Part shown: positions 10,883 to 23,873 of the stretch, piece by piece
How the letters are laid out: each line of letters begins with the position of its first letter
Position numbering within the stretch: the stretch's first letter is position 1
Assembly: GCA_946490195.1 (NCBI GenBank)
Contig: CAMLWN010000007.1
Location: 1-38,893, forward strand
Direction: 5' to 3'
DNA from: an uncultured Mycoplasmatota bacterium
Lineage (GTDB): Bacteria > Bacillota_I > Bacilli_A > RF39 > UBA660
Length of the DNA: 38,893 nucleotides
Program-made: the position numbers and the translations under genes
The notes under the pieces: model-generated
The model's database searches: none
Seen by the model: the letters and a program-made list of their open reading frames with translations, nothing else
Told to the model about the DNA's origin: nothing

Positions 10883-11575
10883 ATGACAAAAGAGATGGAC
10901 AAACCAAATAAAAAGTTTGCAGAAGGAATGTGTTTTTATAAACTTTTTTGGATTTTTTTGTTTGGCTGTATCTTCGGAGCTTATTACGAACAAATCCTAA
11001 ATTTAGTAATTCATTATAACTATCATCATGAAATTGTCTGGCAACTAAGAAGAGGAGTAATTTATGGGCCGATTTCACCAATATATGGTGCTGGAGCCGT
11101 ATTAATGATTGGATTACTAGGTAGAAAAAAAAGACCGGATTGGCAAACAATTTTATATGGCGCCTTAATTGGTGGAGGATTTGAATATTTAGTTAGCTTT
11201 TTACAAGAAATGTTTTTAGGAACAGTTTCTTGGGATTATACAAATGAATTTTTAAACATTAATGGAAGAACAACCATTCCTTTTGCAATTGTCTGGGGAT
11301 TACTTGCATTAGTATTAGTAAAGCTTTTCTATCCGACAATTTCAAACATTATTGAAGCCTTACCGAAAAAGTTTGGGACTTGGTTGACTAGAATATTAAT
11401 TGTTTTGCTTGCCTTAGATTTTGCAATCTCTTGGGGAGCTTTAATAAGACAGATTTTTAGGCATAACGGATATCCAGCTGTAACAATTGTCGGAGAATTT
11501 TTTGACGAATATTATCCAGATGAAGTCTTAAAAGAAAGCTATACGAATATGAAAGTTATTGAGGTGAAAAAATGA
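10883..11575 (+). CDS. CmpB-like 'putative ABC transporter permease' membrane protein
   Basis: Polytopic membrane protein (230 residues) of the PF06541-type family, annotated as putative ABC transporter permease (CmpB-like). Its real role is poorly known. Features: a hydrophobic first segment after MCFYKLFWIFLFGCIFGAYYE, the conserved RRGVIYGPISPIYGAG, then GGGFEYLVSFLQEMFLG and GRTTIPFAIVWGLLAL. No ATP-binding partner is nearby. It follows its own promoter and overlaps the glycosyltransferase gene by 4 bases, so the two are co-translated. That suggests a joint envelope function. Confidence 0.82.
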   Translation: MTKEMDKPNKKFAEGMCFYKLFWIFLFGCIFGAYYEQILNLVIHYNYHHEIVWQLRRGVIYGPISPIYGAGAVLMIGLLGRKKRPDWQTILYGALIGGGFEYLVSFLQEMFLGTVSWDYTNEFLNINGRTTIPFAIVWGLLALVLVKLFYPTISNIIEALPKKFGTWLTRILIVLLALDFAISWGALIRQIFRHNGYPAVTIVGEFFDEYYPDEVLKESYTNMKVIEVKK

Positions 11576-12801
11576 TTTTTTTCTATTCAGTTGCTTTATT
11601 ATCGATAATAGTCGGACTATGTTACTACGTGTATTTAATGTTCACGCCTAAAAAGAATCAATTACAAAAAGAAGAAAATTTGAAAGAAAATCCAAAGATA
11701 GCTATTTTAATTCCAGCTAGAAATGAATCCTTAGTAATTGAAGAACTATTAAAATCGATTGAGAGTCAATCTTATAAAATAAACTCACAAGATGTATATG
11801 TAATCGTTGAAAGTGAAAATGACCCGACAGTAGAAATAGTCCAAAATCATAAAATGAGTTATTTTGTACGAAAAAAACTTCATTTAAAAACAAAAGGTTA
11901 TGCCTTAGCAGAAATGCTTGAAGATTTAGAAAGTAAAAAAAACTACTATGATATCTATTTTATATTTGATGCCGATAATGTTTTAGATAAAGATTTTATT
12001 AAATATATGCTAGAAGATTATCAGCAAGGTTATGCTATTTCAACCGGATATAGGACATTTAAAAATACCAATCATTATTTTCCAATATGTGCCGGATTAA
12101 CTTTTTTTATGATTAACGAAATTCGAAATCGCAGTGCATTAAAGAAAAACGGAAATTTAATATTATCAGGAACCGGGTATTATATTCACGGAAAATATAT
12201 TAAAGAGTGGGGAACCTTTCCGTTTCATTCTTTAACTGAAGATTATGAAAGCTCATTATACTATGCACTTCATGGAATATCCACTCATTATCAAAGTAAA
12301 GCAGTTTTCTATGACGAACAACCAGAAAACTATAAAAAAAGTATCACACAAAGAAGTAGATGGATAAAAGGATATTTACAAAATTGGCTAGAGTATCGTC
12401 CAAAATTAAAGCAAAAATCAAAAGAGAAACCAATAAATCCTAGAAGCTTGATAGAAATGCAAATCGGAATAACTCCAGCATTATATATAGTATTTGGGTT
12501 AGTATTACTAATTATTTTAGTATTATTATCAACCAGTTTTAGTTCATCATGGCAATTAGCAATATATCTACTATGTTTCGTTGGAATTATTTATCTTTCT
12601 TTAGTTTTATTAACCGCAATTCTTTTATATATGGTTTCAAAGCAACTGAAACTCACTCCAAAAGTGTATTTTGAATCCTTACTATATCATCCTATATTTA
12701 TTATTTCTTATCTTCATGCTTTTGTAATAGCCATATGCAAAAAAAATCTTGGTTGGGACACAATCACTCATACAGCCAAAAAAACTTCTAAACAGGTGTA
12801 A
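11572..12801 (+). CDS. Membrane glycosyltransferase family 2
   Basis: Processive-type GT2 enzyme (409 residues). It has an N-terminal membrane segment (about 2-24), the GT-A core with IAILIPARNES (43-53), the metal-binding DAD at 133-135 in IFDADNV, an acceptor-site TEDYESS, the QxxRW motif as QRSRWIKG, and C-terminal membrane segments (about 300-365). QxxRW is typical of enzymes that make polysaccharides while exporting them, such as cellulose or hyaluronan synthases, and of related lipid-linked sugar transferases. It is coupled by an ATGA overlap to the CmpB-like gene and lies upstream of a secreted protein. The product cannot be predicted from sequence. Confidence 0.88.
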   Translation: MIFFYSVALLSIIVGLCYYVYLMFTPKKNQLQKEENLKENPKIAILIPARNESLVIEELLKSIESQSYKINSQDVYVIVESENDPTVEIVQNHKMSYFVRKKLHLKTKGYALAEMLEDLESKKNYYDIYFIFDADNVLDKDFIKYMLEDYQQGYAISTGYRTFKNTNHYFPICAGLTFFMINEIRNRSALKKNGNLILSGTGYYIHGKYIKEWGTFPFHSLTEDYESSLYYALHGISTHYQSKAVFYDEQPENYKKSITQRSRWIKGYLQNWLEYRPKLKQKSKEKPINPRSLIEMQIGITPALYIVFGLVLLIILVLLSTSFSSSWQLAIYLLCFVGIIYLSLVLLTAILLYMVSKQLKLTPKVYFESLLYHPIFIISYLHAFVIAICKKNLGWDTITHTAKKTSKQV

Positions 12802-12916: not shown

Positions 12917-14524
12917 ATGAGCAAAACAAAAAAAATAACTTTAGGAGTTATTGGAGTATTATTAATTTTTTCATTAGTAATAGGAATAAGTTATGCTGCT
13001 TGGAGATTAACTTTAACTCAAACAAATCAAAACACACTTGCTTCAAGCTGTTTTGATATTACTTTTGAAGAAGAAAATCCGATTCTCCTTGAAAATACTT
13101 TTCCAATGTATGATGAAGATGGAAAAACATTAACTCCATATACATTCACAATAACAAATAATTGTAGTGCCTATGCAACATATCAAATTCAATTAGAAAT
13201 CATAAATACTTCAACATTAAAGGATGAATATTTAAAGATTATGATTGATGAAAAAAATCCAGTAATTTTAAACACATTACAATCAGGAGAAAAAACATTA
13301 AGTGAAGCAAGTAGAGCATACATCATTGACAATAATGCCCTAGATGTTAACGAAGAAAAAACATATAACATAAGAGTATGGTTAGATGAAAATGTCACAA
13401 CTGAAACAGAAGGAGTACAAAATAGTAATTGGAGTGCAAAAATTACAATTAATGCACAGTACAGTGATCGCTTGCCAACAGATTACGAAAAATGTGTAGC
13501 CAACTATGGAGAAGATAGTATTAATTGTCAAATTATAGCGCAGTTAGATACTACAGGTGCTTGTCCAACAGTAAATGAAGATGGAACAATTACTGTTACT
13601 AATACAGAAAGTGAAAATGGGTATGTTTGCAGTGCTCCAGATGATTATGGAACAAGTTATTACTTCAGAGGAAACGTAGAAAATAACTGGGTAAAATTTG
13701 CAAATACATATTGGAGAATTCTAAGAATCAATGGCGATGGTTCAATTAGAATGATTTATGCAGGAGATGCTACAGTCATAGATGCATTAGAAAATAAAGA
13801 AGAGGTCTTAAAAAATGGATATGATGATGGAAGTACTGACTACACTCAAATAGGAACCAGTGCATATAATGAATCATACGATGACAATGCCTACGTAGGA
13901 TATATGTATGGTGCACCAGCATCTTCTAGTTATGAAGAAACCCATGCAAACATCAATAATAGTACAATCAAAACAAAAATAGATGAATGGTATGAAAGTC
14001 ATATCAAAGATACAGAACATGAACAATATATCAGCGATACCTTATTTTGTAATGATCGAAGTATATCAGAATATAAGCCAGATAGTGATTATATAAATTC
14101 AGGAATAGGAAAGGAAAAAACAGCATACCGATGGAGGTATGGACCGTGGGATAGTAATAAACAATATCCAAGACTCACATGTAGCCAGCAAAATGACCGA
14201 TTTACAGTAAATGATGAAATATTAGGAAATGGATCTTTAACATATCCAGTAGGATTACTAACAGCAGATGAAGCAACAGTAGCAGGAGGATACAGTTCGA
14301 GTAATTCAAAATATTATCTATATACTGGAAACAGATATTGGACCATGTCTCCTAGCGATTTCAACGGCTCGCGTGCGTACGAGCGTGGCGTCGACTACGA
14401 TGGCGATGTCTACGACGGCAACTACCGCGCGAGTAGCTCGTATGGTGTGCGTCTGGTTCTCAATCTGAAGTCTGATAGTCTGAAAAAGGGCTCAGGAACG
14501 GCCAATGACCCATATACAGTATGA
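12917..14524 (+). CDS. Secreted protein with a C-type-lectin-like C-terminus, possible DGR target
   Basis: A 535-residue exported protein. The basic N-terminus and hydrophobic segment ending ISYAAWRLTLTQTNQN resemble TasA/camelysin-type (SipW-dependent) leaders. An immunoglobulin-like or TasA-like region (about 35-185) follows, then a linker with cysteines (about 190-240), then a domain starting YYFRGNVENNWVKFAN-YWRI and ending WTMSPSDF...YGVRLVLNLKS, the pattern of C-type-lectin/formylglycine-enzyme-like domains. Codons for residues ~476-535 are far richer in GC than the rest (60% against about 32-37%). Most codons between 480 and 507 end in C or T and encode Asn-derivable residues, as in DGR variable regions. 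The GTG at 12908 is in the ribosome binding site, so ATG 12917 is used. It follows, but is probably not co-transcribed with, the GT2 gene. The precise function is unknown; surface display and ligand binding are inferred. Confidence 0.8.
   Translation: MSKTKKITLGVIGVLLIFSLVIGISYAAWRLTLTQTNQNTLASSCFDITFEEENPILLENTFPMYDEDGKTLTPYTFTITNNCSAYATYQIQLEIINTSTLKDEYLKIMIDEKNPVILNTLQSGEKTLSEASRAYIIDNNALDVNEEKTYNIRVWLDENVTTETEGVQNSNWSAKITINAQYSDRLPTDYEKCVANYGEDSINCQIIAQLDTTGACPTVNEDGTITVTNTESENGYVCSAPDDYGTSYYFRGNVENNWVKFANTYWRILRINGDGSIRMIYAGDATVIDALENKEEVLKNGYDDGSTDYTQIGTSAYNESYDDNAYVGYMYGAPASSSYEETHANINNSTIKTKIDEWYESHIKDTEHEQYISDTLFCNDRSISEYKPDSDYINSGIGKEKTAYRWRYGPWDSNKQYPRLTCSQQNDRFTVNDEILGNGSLTYPVGLLTADEATVAGGYSSSNSKYYLYTGNRYWTMSPSDFNGSRAYERGVDYDGDVYDGNYRASSSYGVRLVLNLKSDSLKKGSGTANDPYTV
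14357..14455 (+). other. Putative DGR variable region (GC-rich 3' patch)
   Basis: Codons 481-513 of the secreted protein. GC is 36/60 in 14341-14400 and 35/60 in 14401-14460, against 19/60 in 14281-14340. Codons such as AGC, GAT, AAC, GGC, CGT, TAC, GAC and CGC dominate; about 20 of 30 variable-looking positions are NNC or NNT, as expected if AAC/AAT codons in a template were randomised at their adenines. Five are NNG. The conserved frame WTMSP...GVRLVLNL flanks it. No template repeat or reverse transcriptase is found in the window. Confidence 0.5.
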
Positions 14525-14537: not shown

Positions 14538-14609
14538 AACCAAAATCCTAAGACGATAAAACATTATCAATTCTTACCTACGGACAGTTTTAGAAAAAGC
14601 AAGGAAAAT

Positions 14610-14667
14610 AAAGAAAAAAAGATGTAAAAATACTCGCCCAGAGAGTAATGAATTCCATCTTTTTCTT
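14610..14667 (+). terminator. Structured element, probable terminator, after the secreted protein gene
   Basis: An A-rich arm ending AAGATG (14610-14624) can pair with CATCTTTTTCTT (14656-14667). Inside lies a second perfect stem, TACTC (14631-14635) / GAGTA (14643-14647). The U-rich 3' arm suits an intrinsic terminator, though the large loop is unusual. From 14670 to 15036 I see no gene, only AT-rich sequence. Confidence 0.35.
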
Positions 14668-15036
14668 AAAAGTAGAAGAAAGTACAATTTTTTTGAAAAA
14701 TAAGACATGACGAAAATAATTTGAATGAATCAAATTAAAAAAAGAAAAGAAAAAATAAATTAAATGTCATATAAAATAAATTTAAAGGGAATTCGAATAT
14801 ATTTTATAGAATTAAAGGCTCGATGAAATAAAATTAATCCTGTATTAAACAGAGACATCGCTCGCTTTTTAATTTTTTCCATTAATGACATATGTTTTAT
14901 GAGAAAAGTAACACATACATACACTAAATAGAAGGAACTCCTTTATATTCTTTGTTTTATAGGTATATTATACCGTTGATTTCTTTCTTTTTTATATCAC
15001 CAGATAAATTTAGACCTCATCAATTCAAAATTCTGA

Positions 15037-15065
15037 TTGACGAACGTCTAGTTTTATTTTAAAAT
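15037..15065 (+). promoter_or_regulatory. Promoter of the T-box/asnS transcript
   Basis: -35 TTGACG (15037-15042), exactly 17 bases, then -10 TAAAAT (15060-15065). Transcription would start near 15072, right before Stem I of the T-box. Confidence 0.7.
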
Positions 15066-15071
15066 AAAAGT

Positions 15072-15285
15072 GTCTTCTTAAGAAAGAAACGAGTAAAAAA
15101 TGTCTTTTTTGAACAGAGAAGGTTAATTAGGTGAAAATACCGCTTAAAAGCATTTTTGAAAAACACTTCTTTACATACTTAAGAACGGGTTAACACTCGA
15201 TAAAATGAATGAGTACCTAGGTAAAATAAGGTGGCACCGTGGGATTTATTCTCACCCTTATGTTATCTGGGTTTTTTATTTTTAT
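15072..15285 (+). promoter_or_regulatory. T-box riboswitch (tRNA-Asn) controlling asnS
   Basis: The T-box sequence AAGGTGGCACCGTG is at 15228-15241. Stem I closes with TTCTTAAG (15075-15082) / CTTAAGAA (15178-15185). The specifier loop has AGTA (15092-15095) on the 5' side and GAA-A-AAC on the 3' side, which puts the specifier codon AAC (Asn) at 15162-15164. The distal AGAGAAGG...GGTGAAAATACC (about 15116-15141) matches the AG-bulge/terminal-loop consensus. AAGG of the T-box can pair with CCTT (15256-15259) as antiterminator; the run of T at 15272-15277 belongs to the terminator. Uncharged tRNA-Asn should switch asnS on. Confidence 0.9.
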
Positions 15286-15304
15286 AATGAAAGGAAGATT
15301 TTAT

Positions 15305-16672
15305 ATGTTTTTAAACGAAGTTTTTGAAAAAAAAGAAGAATTACTAGGAAAAGAAATTACAGTTCATGGTTGGATTAGAAATCATCGTCCCCAAAAAGAA
15401 TTTGGTTTTATTGATTTTTCTGATGGAACTTGCTTCAAACATTTACAAATTGTATATGATAAAGAATTGAAAGATTTTGAAGATATTGTTTCTTTTAAAA
15501 ATGGTTCTTCTATTGAAGTAAAGGGAATCTTACAAAAAAGTGAAGGAAAAGGCCAAGAAATCGAATTAAAAGCTTTAAAAGTTGTTTTATTAGGAGATTG
15601 TCCTCTAGATTATCCTTTACAACCTAAAAGACATTCAAACGAGTTTTTACGAAGCATCGCGTATCTAAGACCAAGAGCAAATCTATTTCAAGCTGTTTTT
15701 CGAATTCGCAGCTTAGCGGCCTTAGCAATTCATGAATATTTTGGAAAAAATGGATTTGTCTATTTTCATGCTCCAATTATTACAGCGTCAGACTGTGAAG
15801 GAGCAGGAGAAATGTTTCAAGTCACGACTTTACCTCTAGATAAAGTAAATGGAGAAGTAGACTATAAAAAAGATTTTTTTGGAAAACTTACTTCATTAAC
15901 TGTTTCAGGTCAACTACAAGCAGAAACATTTGCTACAGCATTCTCTAAAGTTTATACTTTTGGTCCAACTTTTCGTGCCGAAAACTCAAATACAAAAGTA
16001 CACGCTTCAGAATTTTGGATGATTGAACCTGAAATGGCTTTTGTAGACATTAATGGGGATATGGATATTATGGAAAGCATGCTTAAATATGTTGTAAGCT
16101 ATTGTTTAGAAAAAGCTCCAGATGAGTTTCAATTTTTAGACCAATTTGTAGAAAAAGGATTAATAAAAAAATTAGAAAAACTAGTGAACGCAAAATTTAC
16201 AAGAATTACCCATGAAGAAGTAATTACTATTCTAAAAAAAGCGGATGTGAAATGGGAATTTACTCCAGAATATGGCGAAGATATTGCTAAAGAACATGAA
16301 AAATACATTACAGAATATTTTGATGGACCTGTATTCATAACAGATTGGCCAAAAGACATTAAAGCTTTCTATATGAAACAAAATGAAGATGGAAAAACAG
16401 TTGCCGCTGTCGATTTAGAAGTACCAGGAGCTGGAGAATTAATGGGCGGAAGTCAAAGAGAAGAAAACTATGATAAATTACTTACACGCATGAAAGAATT
16501 ACACATGAATACTTCAGAATTAGATTGGTATTTGAATTTAAGAAAATACGGAACTTGTGTTCATTCAGGCTTTGGTATGGGCTTTGAAAGACTTTTAATT
16601 TATTTAACAGGAGTCGATAATATTCGCGATGTAATTCCATATCCAAGAACTCCAGGAAACTGTGATTTTTAA
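15305..16672 (+). CDS. asnS: Asparaginyl-tRNA synthetase
   Basis: Class IIb aminoacyl-tRNA synthetase that charges tRNA-Asn in the cytoplasm. 455 residues, normal length: N-terminal OB-fold anticodon-binding domain (ITVHGWIRNHRPQKEFGFID), motif 2 with FRAENSNT and EFWMIEPEMAF, and motif 3 GFGMGFERLLIYLTG. The ATG at 15305 has GAAAGGAAG seven bases upstream. An in-frame upstream reading from 15239 runs through the T-box terminator region and is not used. Regulated by the Asn-specific T-box just upstream. The stop codon overlaps by one base the start of a 77-residue gene. Confidence 0.97.
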   Translation: MFLNEVFEKKEELLGKEITVHGWIRNHRPQKEFGFIDFSDGTCFKHLQIVYDKELKDFEDIVSFKNGSSIEVKGILQKSEGKGQEIELKALKVVLLGDCPLDYPLQPKRHSNEFLRSIAYLRPRANLFQAVFRIRSLAALAIHEYFGKNGFVYFHAPIITASDCEGAGEMFQVTTLPLDKVNGEVDYKKDFFGKLTSLTVSGQLQAETFATAFSKVYTFGPTFRAENSNTKVHASEFWMIEPEMAFVDINGDMDIMESMLKYVVSYCLEKAPDEFQFLDQFVEKGLIKKLEKLVNAKFTRITHEEVITILKKADVKWEFTPEYGEDIAKEHEKYITEYFDGPVFITDWPKDIKAFYMKQNEDGKTVAAVDLEVPGAGELMGGSQREENYDKLLTRMKELHMNTSELDWYLNLRKYGTCVHSGFGMGFERLLIYLTGVDNIRDVIPYPRTPGNCDF

Positions 16673-22545: not shown

Positions 22546-23873
22546 ATCATGAATATATTACAATTTCTCAAATAAACAACTTTATTAAAATGATTTTTGA
22601 TGGCAACTCTTATTTGCAAAAAGTATACCTAAAAGGAGAAATTAGTAATTTCAAAAGACATTCATCTGGACATTTATATTTAACTTTAAAAGATGAAGAA
22701 TCTAGAATAAGTGCCATCATGTTTCGTAGCATGGCTTCCAAATTAACATTTGTCCCGGAAGATGGAATGAATGTCTTAGTAGAAGGAAGGATAAGTGTCT
22801 ATCCAGCTGGCGGAAATTATCAAATTTATATAGATAAAATGGAGCAAGATGGCTTAGGCAATCTGTATGTAGAATTTGAAAAATTAAAAAAGAAATTAGC
22901 AGGAGAAGGATTGTTTGATGTAAGTCATAAAAAGCCCATTCCAAAATTTCCCAAAAAAATAGGAATTGTCACGGCTCCAACAGGCGCTGCAATCAAAGAT
23001 ATTTTAAGTACGATAACTAGACGTTTTCCTTTGTGTGAAACCATTCTTTTCCCGTCACTTGTTCAAGGGGTGCAAGCTAAAGAAGATATTGTCAAAAACA
23101 TAAAAAAAGCAAATGAATACGATTTAGACGTCTTAATTGTCGGACGTGGGGGAGGCTCAATTGAAGATTTATGGGCATTTAATGAAGAAATCGTTGCAAG
23201 AGCAATCTATGAATCCAAAATTCCTATAATAAGCGCAGTCGGTCATGAAGTAGATGTAACAATAGCCGATTTTGTTGCCGACAAACGAGCCCCAACACCA
23301 ACAGGCGCCGCGGAAATGGCTGTTCCAACTATTGAAGAAGTAAAAAATTTATTTCAAACCAAACAAATCGAAATATCAAACGCCTTTTTAACTAGATTAA
23401 ATGAGAAAAAACATCATTTAAAGAAACTTGCAGATAGTTTTATTTTAAAAAATCCAATGGTTTTATATGATGTAAAAATCCAAAAATTAGATGATTTAAC
23501 TGACAAATTAAAAAATGCAATGGATAGTTTTCTTGAAAACAAAACAAAAGAAATAAATCATTTAAAAGAACATTATATTATGAAAAATCCATTAATTATG
23601 TATCAAAACAAAATTGAAGAAATCAATAAAAATCAAGAAATTTTACAAAAAAATATCGAGGCAATTTTAAACAAAAAAAATCACGACTTTGCCTTTATTG
23701 TTCAAACTTTAAAATTAGTAAATCCATTAAATATTTTAGACAAAGGATATTCATTAATAAAAAAGGATGGACATATACTTAAAGAAAGTAGTAAGATAAA
23801 AGAAAAAGATATATTAAATGTTCGCCTATCTAAAGGTGAGCTTAGTGTAGAAGTAAAGGAGATTATATCATGA
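22542..23873 (+). CDS. xseA: Exodeoxyribonuclease VII large subunit
   Basis: Catalytic subunit of ExoVII, which degrades single-stranded DNA to oligonucleotides in repair. 443 residues: N-terminal OB-fold (ITISQINNFIKMIFDGN, VYLKGEISNFKRHSSGHLYL), then the nuclease core with GIVTAPTGAAIKDILSTI, VGRGGGSIEDLWAFNEE and SAVGHEVDVTIADFVAD, then a long coiled-coil part (about 270-390) and a C-terminal strand region (LDKGYSLIKKDG). The coiled-coil arm binds XseB, encoded next with an ATGA overlap. It starts by a 4-base overlap with the HipA-like gene. Confidence 0.97.
   Translation: MNHEYITISQINNFIKMIFDGNSYLQKVYLKGEISNFKRHSSGHLYLTLKDEESRISAIMFRSMASKLTFVPEDGMNVLVEGRISVYPAGGNYQIYIDKMEQDGLGNLYVEFEKLKKKLAGEGLFDVSHKKPIPKFPKKIGIVTAPTGAAIKDILSTITRRFPLCETILFPSLVQGVQAKEDIVKNIKKANEYDLDVLIVGRGGGSIEDLWAFNEEIVARAIYESKIPIISAVGHEVDVTIADFVADKRAPTPTGAAEMAVPTIEEVKNLFQTKQIEISNAFLTRLNEKKHHLKKLADSFILKNPMVLYDVKIQKLDDLTDKLKNAMDSFLENKTKEINHLKEHYIMKNPLIMYQNKIEEINKNQEILQKNIEAILNKKNHDFAFIVQTLKLVNPLNILDKGYSLIKKDGHILKESSKIKEKDILNVRLSKGELSVEVKEIIS

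Follow-up and report, generated by a model that had tools for sequence, protein, structure and literature searches.

Cellular diversity-generating retroelements (DGRs) with C-type-lectin-like surface targets include those of the Legionella lipoprotein and of Treponema TvpA (summarised in PMC10907252). In DGR targets of gut phages, namely Faecalibacterium prophages (PMC11792537) and tentaclins (PMC10743442), the variable region (VR) is borne by the DUF6273 domain, whose fold was described as C-type-lectin-like (PMC10743442). The Thiohalocapsa strain PB-PSB1 possesses nine DGR loci and 15 targets, some of them remote, and diversification in trans was proposed for this genome (PMC10907252). For a single template repeat (TR), twelve VRs or more have likewise been reported (PMC6642488).

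We analyzed a stretch of 38.9 kb (the window), in which one gene ends in a GC-rich patch. This gene is very probably the target of a DGR, with the patch as its VR. The original prediction to this effect is supported by DGR cassettes of homologous targets in related genomes, by a template found in a congener, by VR changes relative to a second genome and by a GC excess in the homologues. The features are collected in Table 1.

Table 1. Features of the window gene and of DGR reverse transcriptases (RTs); positions are those of the window unless a locus is named
Feature	Position	Strand	Basis
Putative DGR target gene, encoding a surface protein of 535 aa that is secreted or membrane-anchored	12917..14524	+	ORF and translation
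N-terminal hydrophobic helix (residues 2-28), signal or membrane anchor	12920..13000	+	sequence KKITLGVIGVLLIFSLVIGISYAAW; helix 2-28 in AlphaFold2 model
N-terminal beta-sandwich domain (residues 46-183)	13052..13465	+	AlphaFold2 strands, block pLDDT about 70-91
C-terminal DUF6273-like domain carrying the VR	13613..14521	+	AlphaFold2 pLDDT 92, pTM 0.91; BFVD matches
Putative VR, codons 480-512	14354..14452	+	GC jump, NNY codons, strain differences, counterpart of template-paired VRs
GVRL motif, VR 3' boundary and expected initiation-of-mutagenic-homing position	14444..14455	+	end of TR/VR identity and of strain divergence
Conserved 3' coding tail behind the VR	14456..14521	+	1 difference in 66 nt vs L181; DNA conserved in L115 and L118
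Terminator-like hairpin with T-run, 3' of the gene	14616..14664	+	inverted repeat 14616-14627/14653-14664
Group II intron at the YMDD codons of DGR RTs, both clades	L015 (G000 C12) 13694; L156 2195-3698; L126 2-815; L282 1729; L177 1752-1823; L279 1-111		

The window gene and its GC-rich patch

The gene product was predicted to be a secreted protein with the patch at its C-terminus, and this holds: it has one N-terminal hydrophobic helix, and the patch lies between WTMSP and GVRLVLNL. A recount also bore out the coordinates of the patch and the jump to ∼60% GC between these two motifs. Codons 480-509 (14354-14443) have a GC content of 60%, as compared with 31.7% in the gene upstream, and the excess is seen at all three codon positions (57, 47 and 77% vs 39, 39 and 17% upstream). 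Counts in 60-nt segments are 37 at 14340-14399, 36 at 14357-14416 and 35 at 14400-14459, and a weaker excess (27/60) extends beyond GVRLVLNL to about position 14519. The most GC-rich 90-nt segment of the whole window starts at 14367 (63%), the runner-up being at 23233 (54%). The predicted excess of NNC and NNT codons is present, but their number was underestimated at about 20: 25 of the 30 codons in the patch are NNY, vs 231 of 479 upstream (Fisher p=2e-4). NNC codons alone account for 18 of 30 and 51 of 479, respectively (p=7e-10).

The same compositional feature characterizes the homologues of the gene, since VR GC exceeds that of the own upstream sequence in 43 of 47 of them (medians 0.46 vs 0.32). 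This excess arises because the non-adenine letters of the templates are GC-rich (54-69% GC vs 35-48% locally in the templates of homologues). Overwriting from a template had been proposed as the source of the GC-rich patch; the templates are indeed GC-rich, with the correction that their non-adenine letters come first and that randomisation of adenines adds to the effect. Extending this from the homologues to the window, the GC of the patch was probably inherited from a template and raised further by adenine replacement. In this AT-rich lineage, whose templates have GC-rich non-adenine letters, a jump in composition is thus sufficient to flag a DGR VR even when the template and RT are missing from the assembly.

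Horizontal acquisition of the patch, or its gene conversion, from a GC-rich donor, with no retroelement involved, would agree with the abrupt change in composition and with the generally mosaic structure of the gene between near-identical genomes. However, the excess is centred on the VR, is common to homologues across the family and is present in the templates too; the homologues have paired templates with adenine-biased differences; and such an acquisition would not yield NNY codons with changes concentrated at positions 1 and 2. We consider this origin extremely improbable.

The VR is positioned at the C-terminus of a domain that is DUF6273-like by its fold in BFVD and, weakly, by profile in homologues. 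Several DUF6273 phage proteins are among the BFVD matches of the domain model (E about 1e-4). An initial fold search, for which the model of the full-length, two-domain protein was used, returned nothing but unconvincing matches. No Pfam match reached the window protein, that of DUF6273 (PF19789) included; the latter was touched weakly by 21 of 48 homologues, at the C-terminal end in those inspected. A sequence profile search against the PDB found nothing, and fold searches of the PDB returned no C-type-lectin match; for the C-type-lectin fold we therefore rely on published work (PMC10743442). The protein may function as a surface receptor or adhesin.

In the neighbourhood of the target gene, a glycosyltransferase and a CmpB-type ABC transporter protein are encoded, and asnS is present together with a T-box. 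Judging by these neighbours and by just four relatives in the viral contig collection, the target does not have a phage or prophage setting. No remnant of avd or an RT was found inside the window. The T-box leader ahead of asnS (15077-15262) matches RF00230 with 65 bits, which is under the gathering score (E=3e-13). Directly behind the window VR no BPP-1-type hairpin was seen, the first inverted repeat reported being the terminator-like one about 160 nt downstream. The hairpin region is also conserved behind two other targets (L193 and L194). The noncoding segment 14573-14901 is 74% identical over 336 nt to the sequence behind one of these, a target of genome G155 (L194), including the terminator-like hairpin. 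A segment of the window at about 14575-15018 is absent from the near-identical contig L181.

DGR cassettes and templates in the own and related genomes

C-terminal homologues of the window gene were identified in 88 of 145 genomes of the family. Within the genus, protein homologues are present in all 37 genomes; the number of matches is 4-45 in each congener and 10 in the window's own assembly (G000). A second clade of DGR RTs adjoins such targets in the family and is widespread in the genus. The cassettes have the gene order target, template, Avd-sized ORF and RT; Avd was confirmed by profile (PF22296) in the congener G071 and on contig C12 of the own assembly, and the RT of G071 by PF00078. 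In nine template/VR pairs of homologous targets, differences affect 174 of 322 template adenines but only 9 of 692 other positions (pooled Fisher p 5e-92, sites being treated as independent). Because the scan that located the pairs requires adenine-biased mismatches, part of this bias stems from the selection; however, none of the scanned cassette regions gave a competing repeat, and the template of G071 described below had been predicted beforehand. TR/VR identity in these cassettes ends at about GVRP, and the GVRL motif of the window gene may correspondingly serve as the initiation-of-mutagenic-homing site. No template was found near the RT in genomes G097 and G083.

For G071, a template was predicted from six target VRs whose variable letters were left unspecified; its all-AAC/AAT version was subsequently located at C45:202-263, where Avd and RT come next. 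Twelve target ends from other contigs of this genome were compared with the template, and 10 fit it at the cut-off used, with differences at 204 of 436 adenines vs 45 of 647 other letters. Several targets have 0-2 non-adenine mismatches, amounting to zero in 66 for three targets and to 1 in 65 for one. As the targets come from different contigs, a single template accounts for more than one locus, and diversification probably works in trans.

In genomes G157 and G155, few of the sampled targets are accounted for by assembled templates, with one good fit among 16 in G157 and four among 19 in G155. Many VRs of the targets in these two genomes (L240-L276) fall into groups matching no assembled template. 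Among such groups is an FxGSxAxVR-like one, which the window VR resembles. A truncated homologue of the window gene was found in G148 (C84; L126 1277-1965), 91% identical over residues 71-221 and with a similar upstream region. Its placement directly behind a clade-B DGR RT exon suggests a past linkage of the target to a cassette.

The own assembly comprises 1.01 Mb in 52 contigs and is about 80% complete. The template repeat expected by the original prediction was not found in it by BLAST, whereas homologous targets of relatives do have templates with adenine-specific differences. An adenine-tolerant 64-nt pattern, in which any VR letter may be a template adenine and up to three mismatches are allowed, likewise had no match in the own assembly, and with three mismatches the adenine-tolerant pattern revealed no template for the window VR in the near-identical genome. 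An RT of the clade paired with window-type targets was not found in the own assembly, and a cognate Avd was found neither there nor in the near-identical G180, which was searched for Avd only. The DGR membership of the target is thus incomplete, because its cognate template and RT are missing from the incomplete assembly.

A DGR-type RT with an Avd partner, which had also been expected, does occur in the own genome on C12, but both belong to another target and the RT to another clade. This separate DGR locus (L015 10441-13737) consists of a target, a 104-aa ORF similar to MutS domain I, Avd (PF22296 bAvd, 75 bits) and a truncated RT; neither the locus nor the contig yielded a template. The target differs from that of the window, and its C-terminal end resembles templates of related loci. 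The RT, the sole DGR RT found in the own assembly, is a 201-aa open frame that is similar to the DGR RTs of relatives and runs to the contig end. A group II intron interrupts it at the YMDD codons, and it is one base short relative to G148, so its two halves lie in different frames. Another RT of the own genome, on C20, was rejected as a DGR RT, since it looks retron-like from its sequence and context. Paralogues of the window gene include one truncated and one second copy on C9 (L019), the end of which resembles the VR type of G153 (L157), and a gene on C10 (L020) that has no GC-rich patch (33% GC).

These observations bear on whether the target is active at present. The patch might be an orphan, fossil VR that was written by a DGR in the past, has lost its cognate template and RT, and now varies by recombination between paralogues only. 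This would fit the own assembly, which has no template or cognate RT, the near-identical genome, which has no template or Avd, and the several VR groups of G155 and G157 that match no assembled template. On the other hand, the assemblies reach about 80% completeness or are in fragments, with breaks at these very repeats in many of them. We regard a fossil VR as possible though somewhat unlikely; being a sub-case of a DGR target that denies present activity, it shares part of the confidence placed in the latter.

Variation between two near-identical genomes

The comparison of strains is limited to two genomes, the second being represented by a contig of another assembly (L181, CALWZB010000140.1). 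The flanks are nearly the same, with 99-100% identity over most of 10891-12690 and 97-100% over 15025-15384. Within the gene, the difference is 2-3% in codons 1-200, 7-12% in codons 201-478, 23% in VR codons 479-513 and 1.5% in codons 514-535. An excess of variation at the patch, as originally predicted, is therefore observed: 23 of 99 VR positions differ, as compared with one of 66 in the tail, and the divergence stops at codon 514. The genome accordingly does not pair a lack of DGR components with ordinary variation, as an RT and Avd are present on C12 and VR change is in excess.

The VR differences are distributed over codon positions 1, 2 and 3 as 9, 11 and 3, vs 26, 16 and 43 in codons 201-478; positions 1 and 2 thus account for 20 of 23 and 42 of 85 differences, respectively (p=0.0016). 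The third base is retained in changes such as GAT to AGT, TAC to GAC and GGC to ATC, in line with adenine randomisation of AAY codons. This retention of third positions, against 43 of 85 differences at position 3 upstream, argues against a VR that varies by paralogue recombination only. In favour of such a VR, mosaicism between the two genomes extends to the remainder of the C-terminal half. The divergence of codons 201-478 is about half synonymous, which suggests recombination with paralogues, so that both processes act; the difference of the whole C-terminal half (7-12%), and not of the VR alone, suggests that such recombination contributes. The two VRs are two codons apart in length, hence more than one template is involved or the template itself has changed, a single unchanged template being insufficient.

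Ordinary diversifying selection on a surface loop, without mutagenic retrohoming, would likewise give the observed excess of nonsynonymous over synonymous VR codon changes (16 vs 3), which is expected for any immune- or phage-exposed loop. Nevertheless, it leaves unexplained the third-position GC excess and the sharp 3' boundary, as well as the AAC/AAT templates beside Avd and RT and the few changes at their non-adenine letters (9/692). Selection of this kind is a very unlikely sole cause of the pattern.

For the preferred reading, a DGR target, the following mechanism can be proposed. A template repeat located elsewhere would be transcribed, and an Avd-assisted error-prone RT would copy it, placing random bases at template adenines. 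The cDNA would then replace the homologous patch in the target gene, so that the first two positions of AAY codons would be altered in a surface-exposed DUF6273/C-type-lectin-like domain. By analogy with its homologues, the window VR was probably written in this way, its template having since been lost or being absent from the assembly.

Group II introns in DGR RTs and comparison with known systems

In the RT of C12, YMD is followed by GGTGCGACTGTGTAGG, a sequence shared at this point with the RTs of G148 (C24) and G159. The same 5' end (GTGCGACTGTGTAGGTCGAATAAATTAGTGAG) is located behind the YMD codons in RTs of both clades, namely clade A (G000 and G148) and clade B (G159). In G159 (L156), an Rfam group II intron D1-D4-6 element lies about 35 nt beyond the sequence following YMD, and an ORF with YADD is found behind the intron 5' end. 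Ahead of its second RT exon, G148 (C84) has group II intron 3' domains; in G150, such domains border the RT fragment. Altogether, the 5' end of the intron was seen in G000, G148 (C24) and G159, and its 3' side in G148 (C84), G159 and G150. Judged by the sequences on both sides, splicing would rejoin the active-site codons and restore YMDD. Searches of the open literature, a body to which most subscription papers do not belong, revealed no title or abstract that reports a group II intron in the YMDD codons of a DGR RT. It can be speculated, although we hold this to be rather doubtful, that the genus keeps dozens of scattered hypervariable surface proteins that are rewritten in trans by a few templates, with the RT gated by a group II intron in its YMDD codons; if so, diversification depends on intron splicing. 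These observations point to DGR RTs with group II introns at the catalytic codons. They likewise indicate a gut bacterial lineage with tiny genomes that devotes many genes to hypervariable surface proteins and is a good natural case for diversification in trans.

Like the DGRs of Legionella and Treponema, the system described here has a C-terminal VR in a secreted or surface protein and, in relatives, adenine-specific template/VR differences, Avd and a DGR RT. In contrast to them, the window target is isolated, with a glycosyltransferase on one side and asnS on the other; neither a template nor an RT is close by, no template or cognate RT was found in the assembly, and many related targets are present per genome. 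As in the DUF6273 targets of gut phages, the window VR sits in a DUF6273-like domain, and the fold matches in BFVD include DUF6273 proteins. Unlike these, the targets are chromosomally encoded surface proteins that combine an N-terminal anchor with a beta-sandwich, only four relatives occur in the viral contig collection, and the window protein itself has no match to PF19789. Common to the present system and Thiohalocapsa PB-PSB1 are several cassettes and remote targets in one genome, as well as the proposal that diversification works in trans; the differences are up to 45 homologues per genome of about 0.8-1.6 Mb, the several template groups, and the window gene, in which no NACHT or conflict-system domain was seen. 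For a DGR of an otherwise known sort, the large target repertoire (37/37 congeners) and the intron-split RT are the less ordinary parts.
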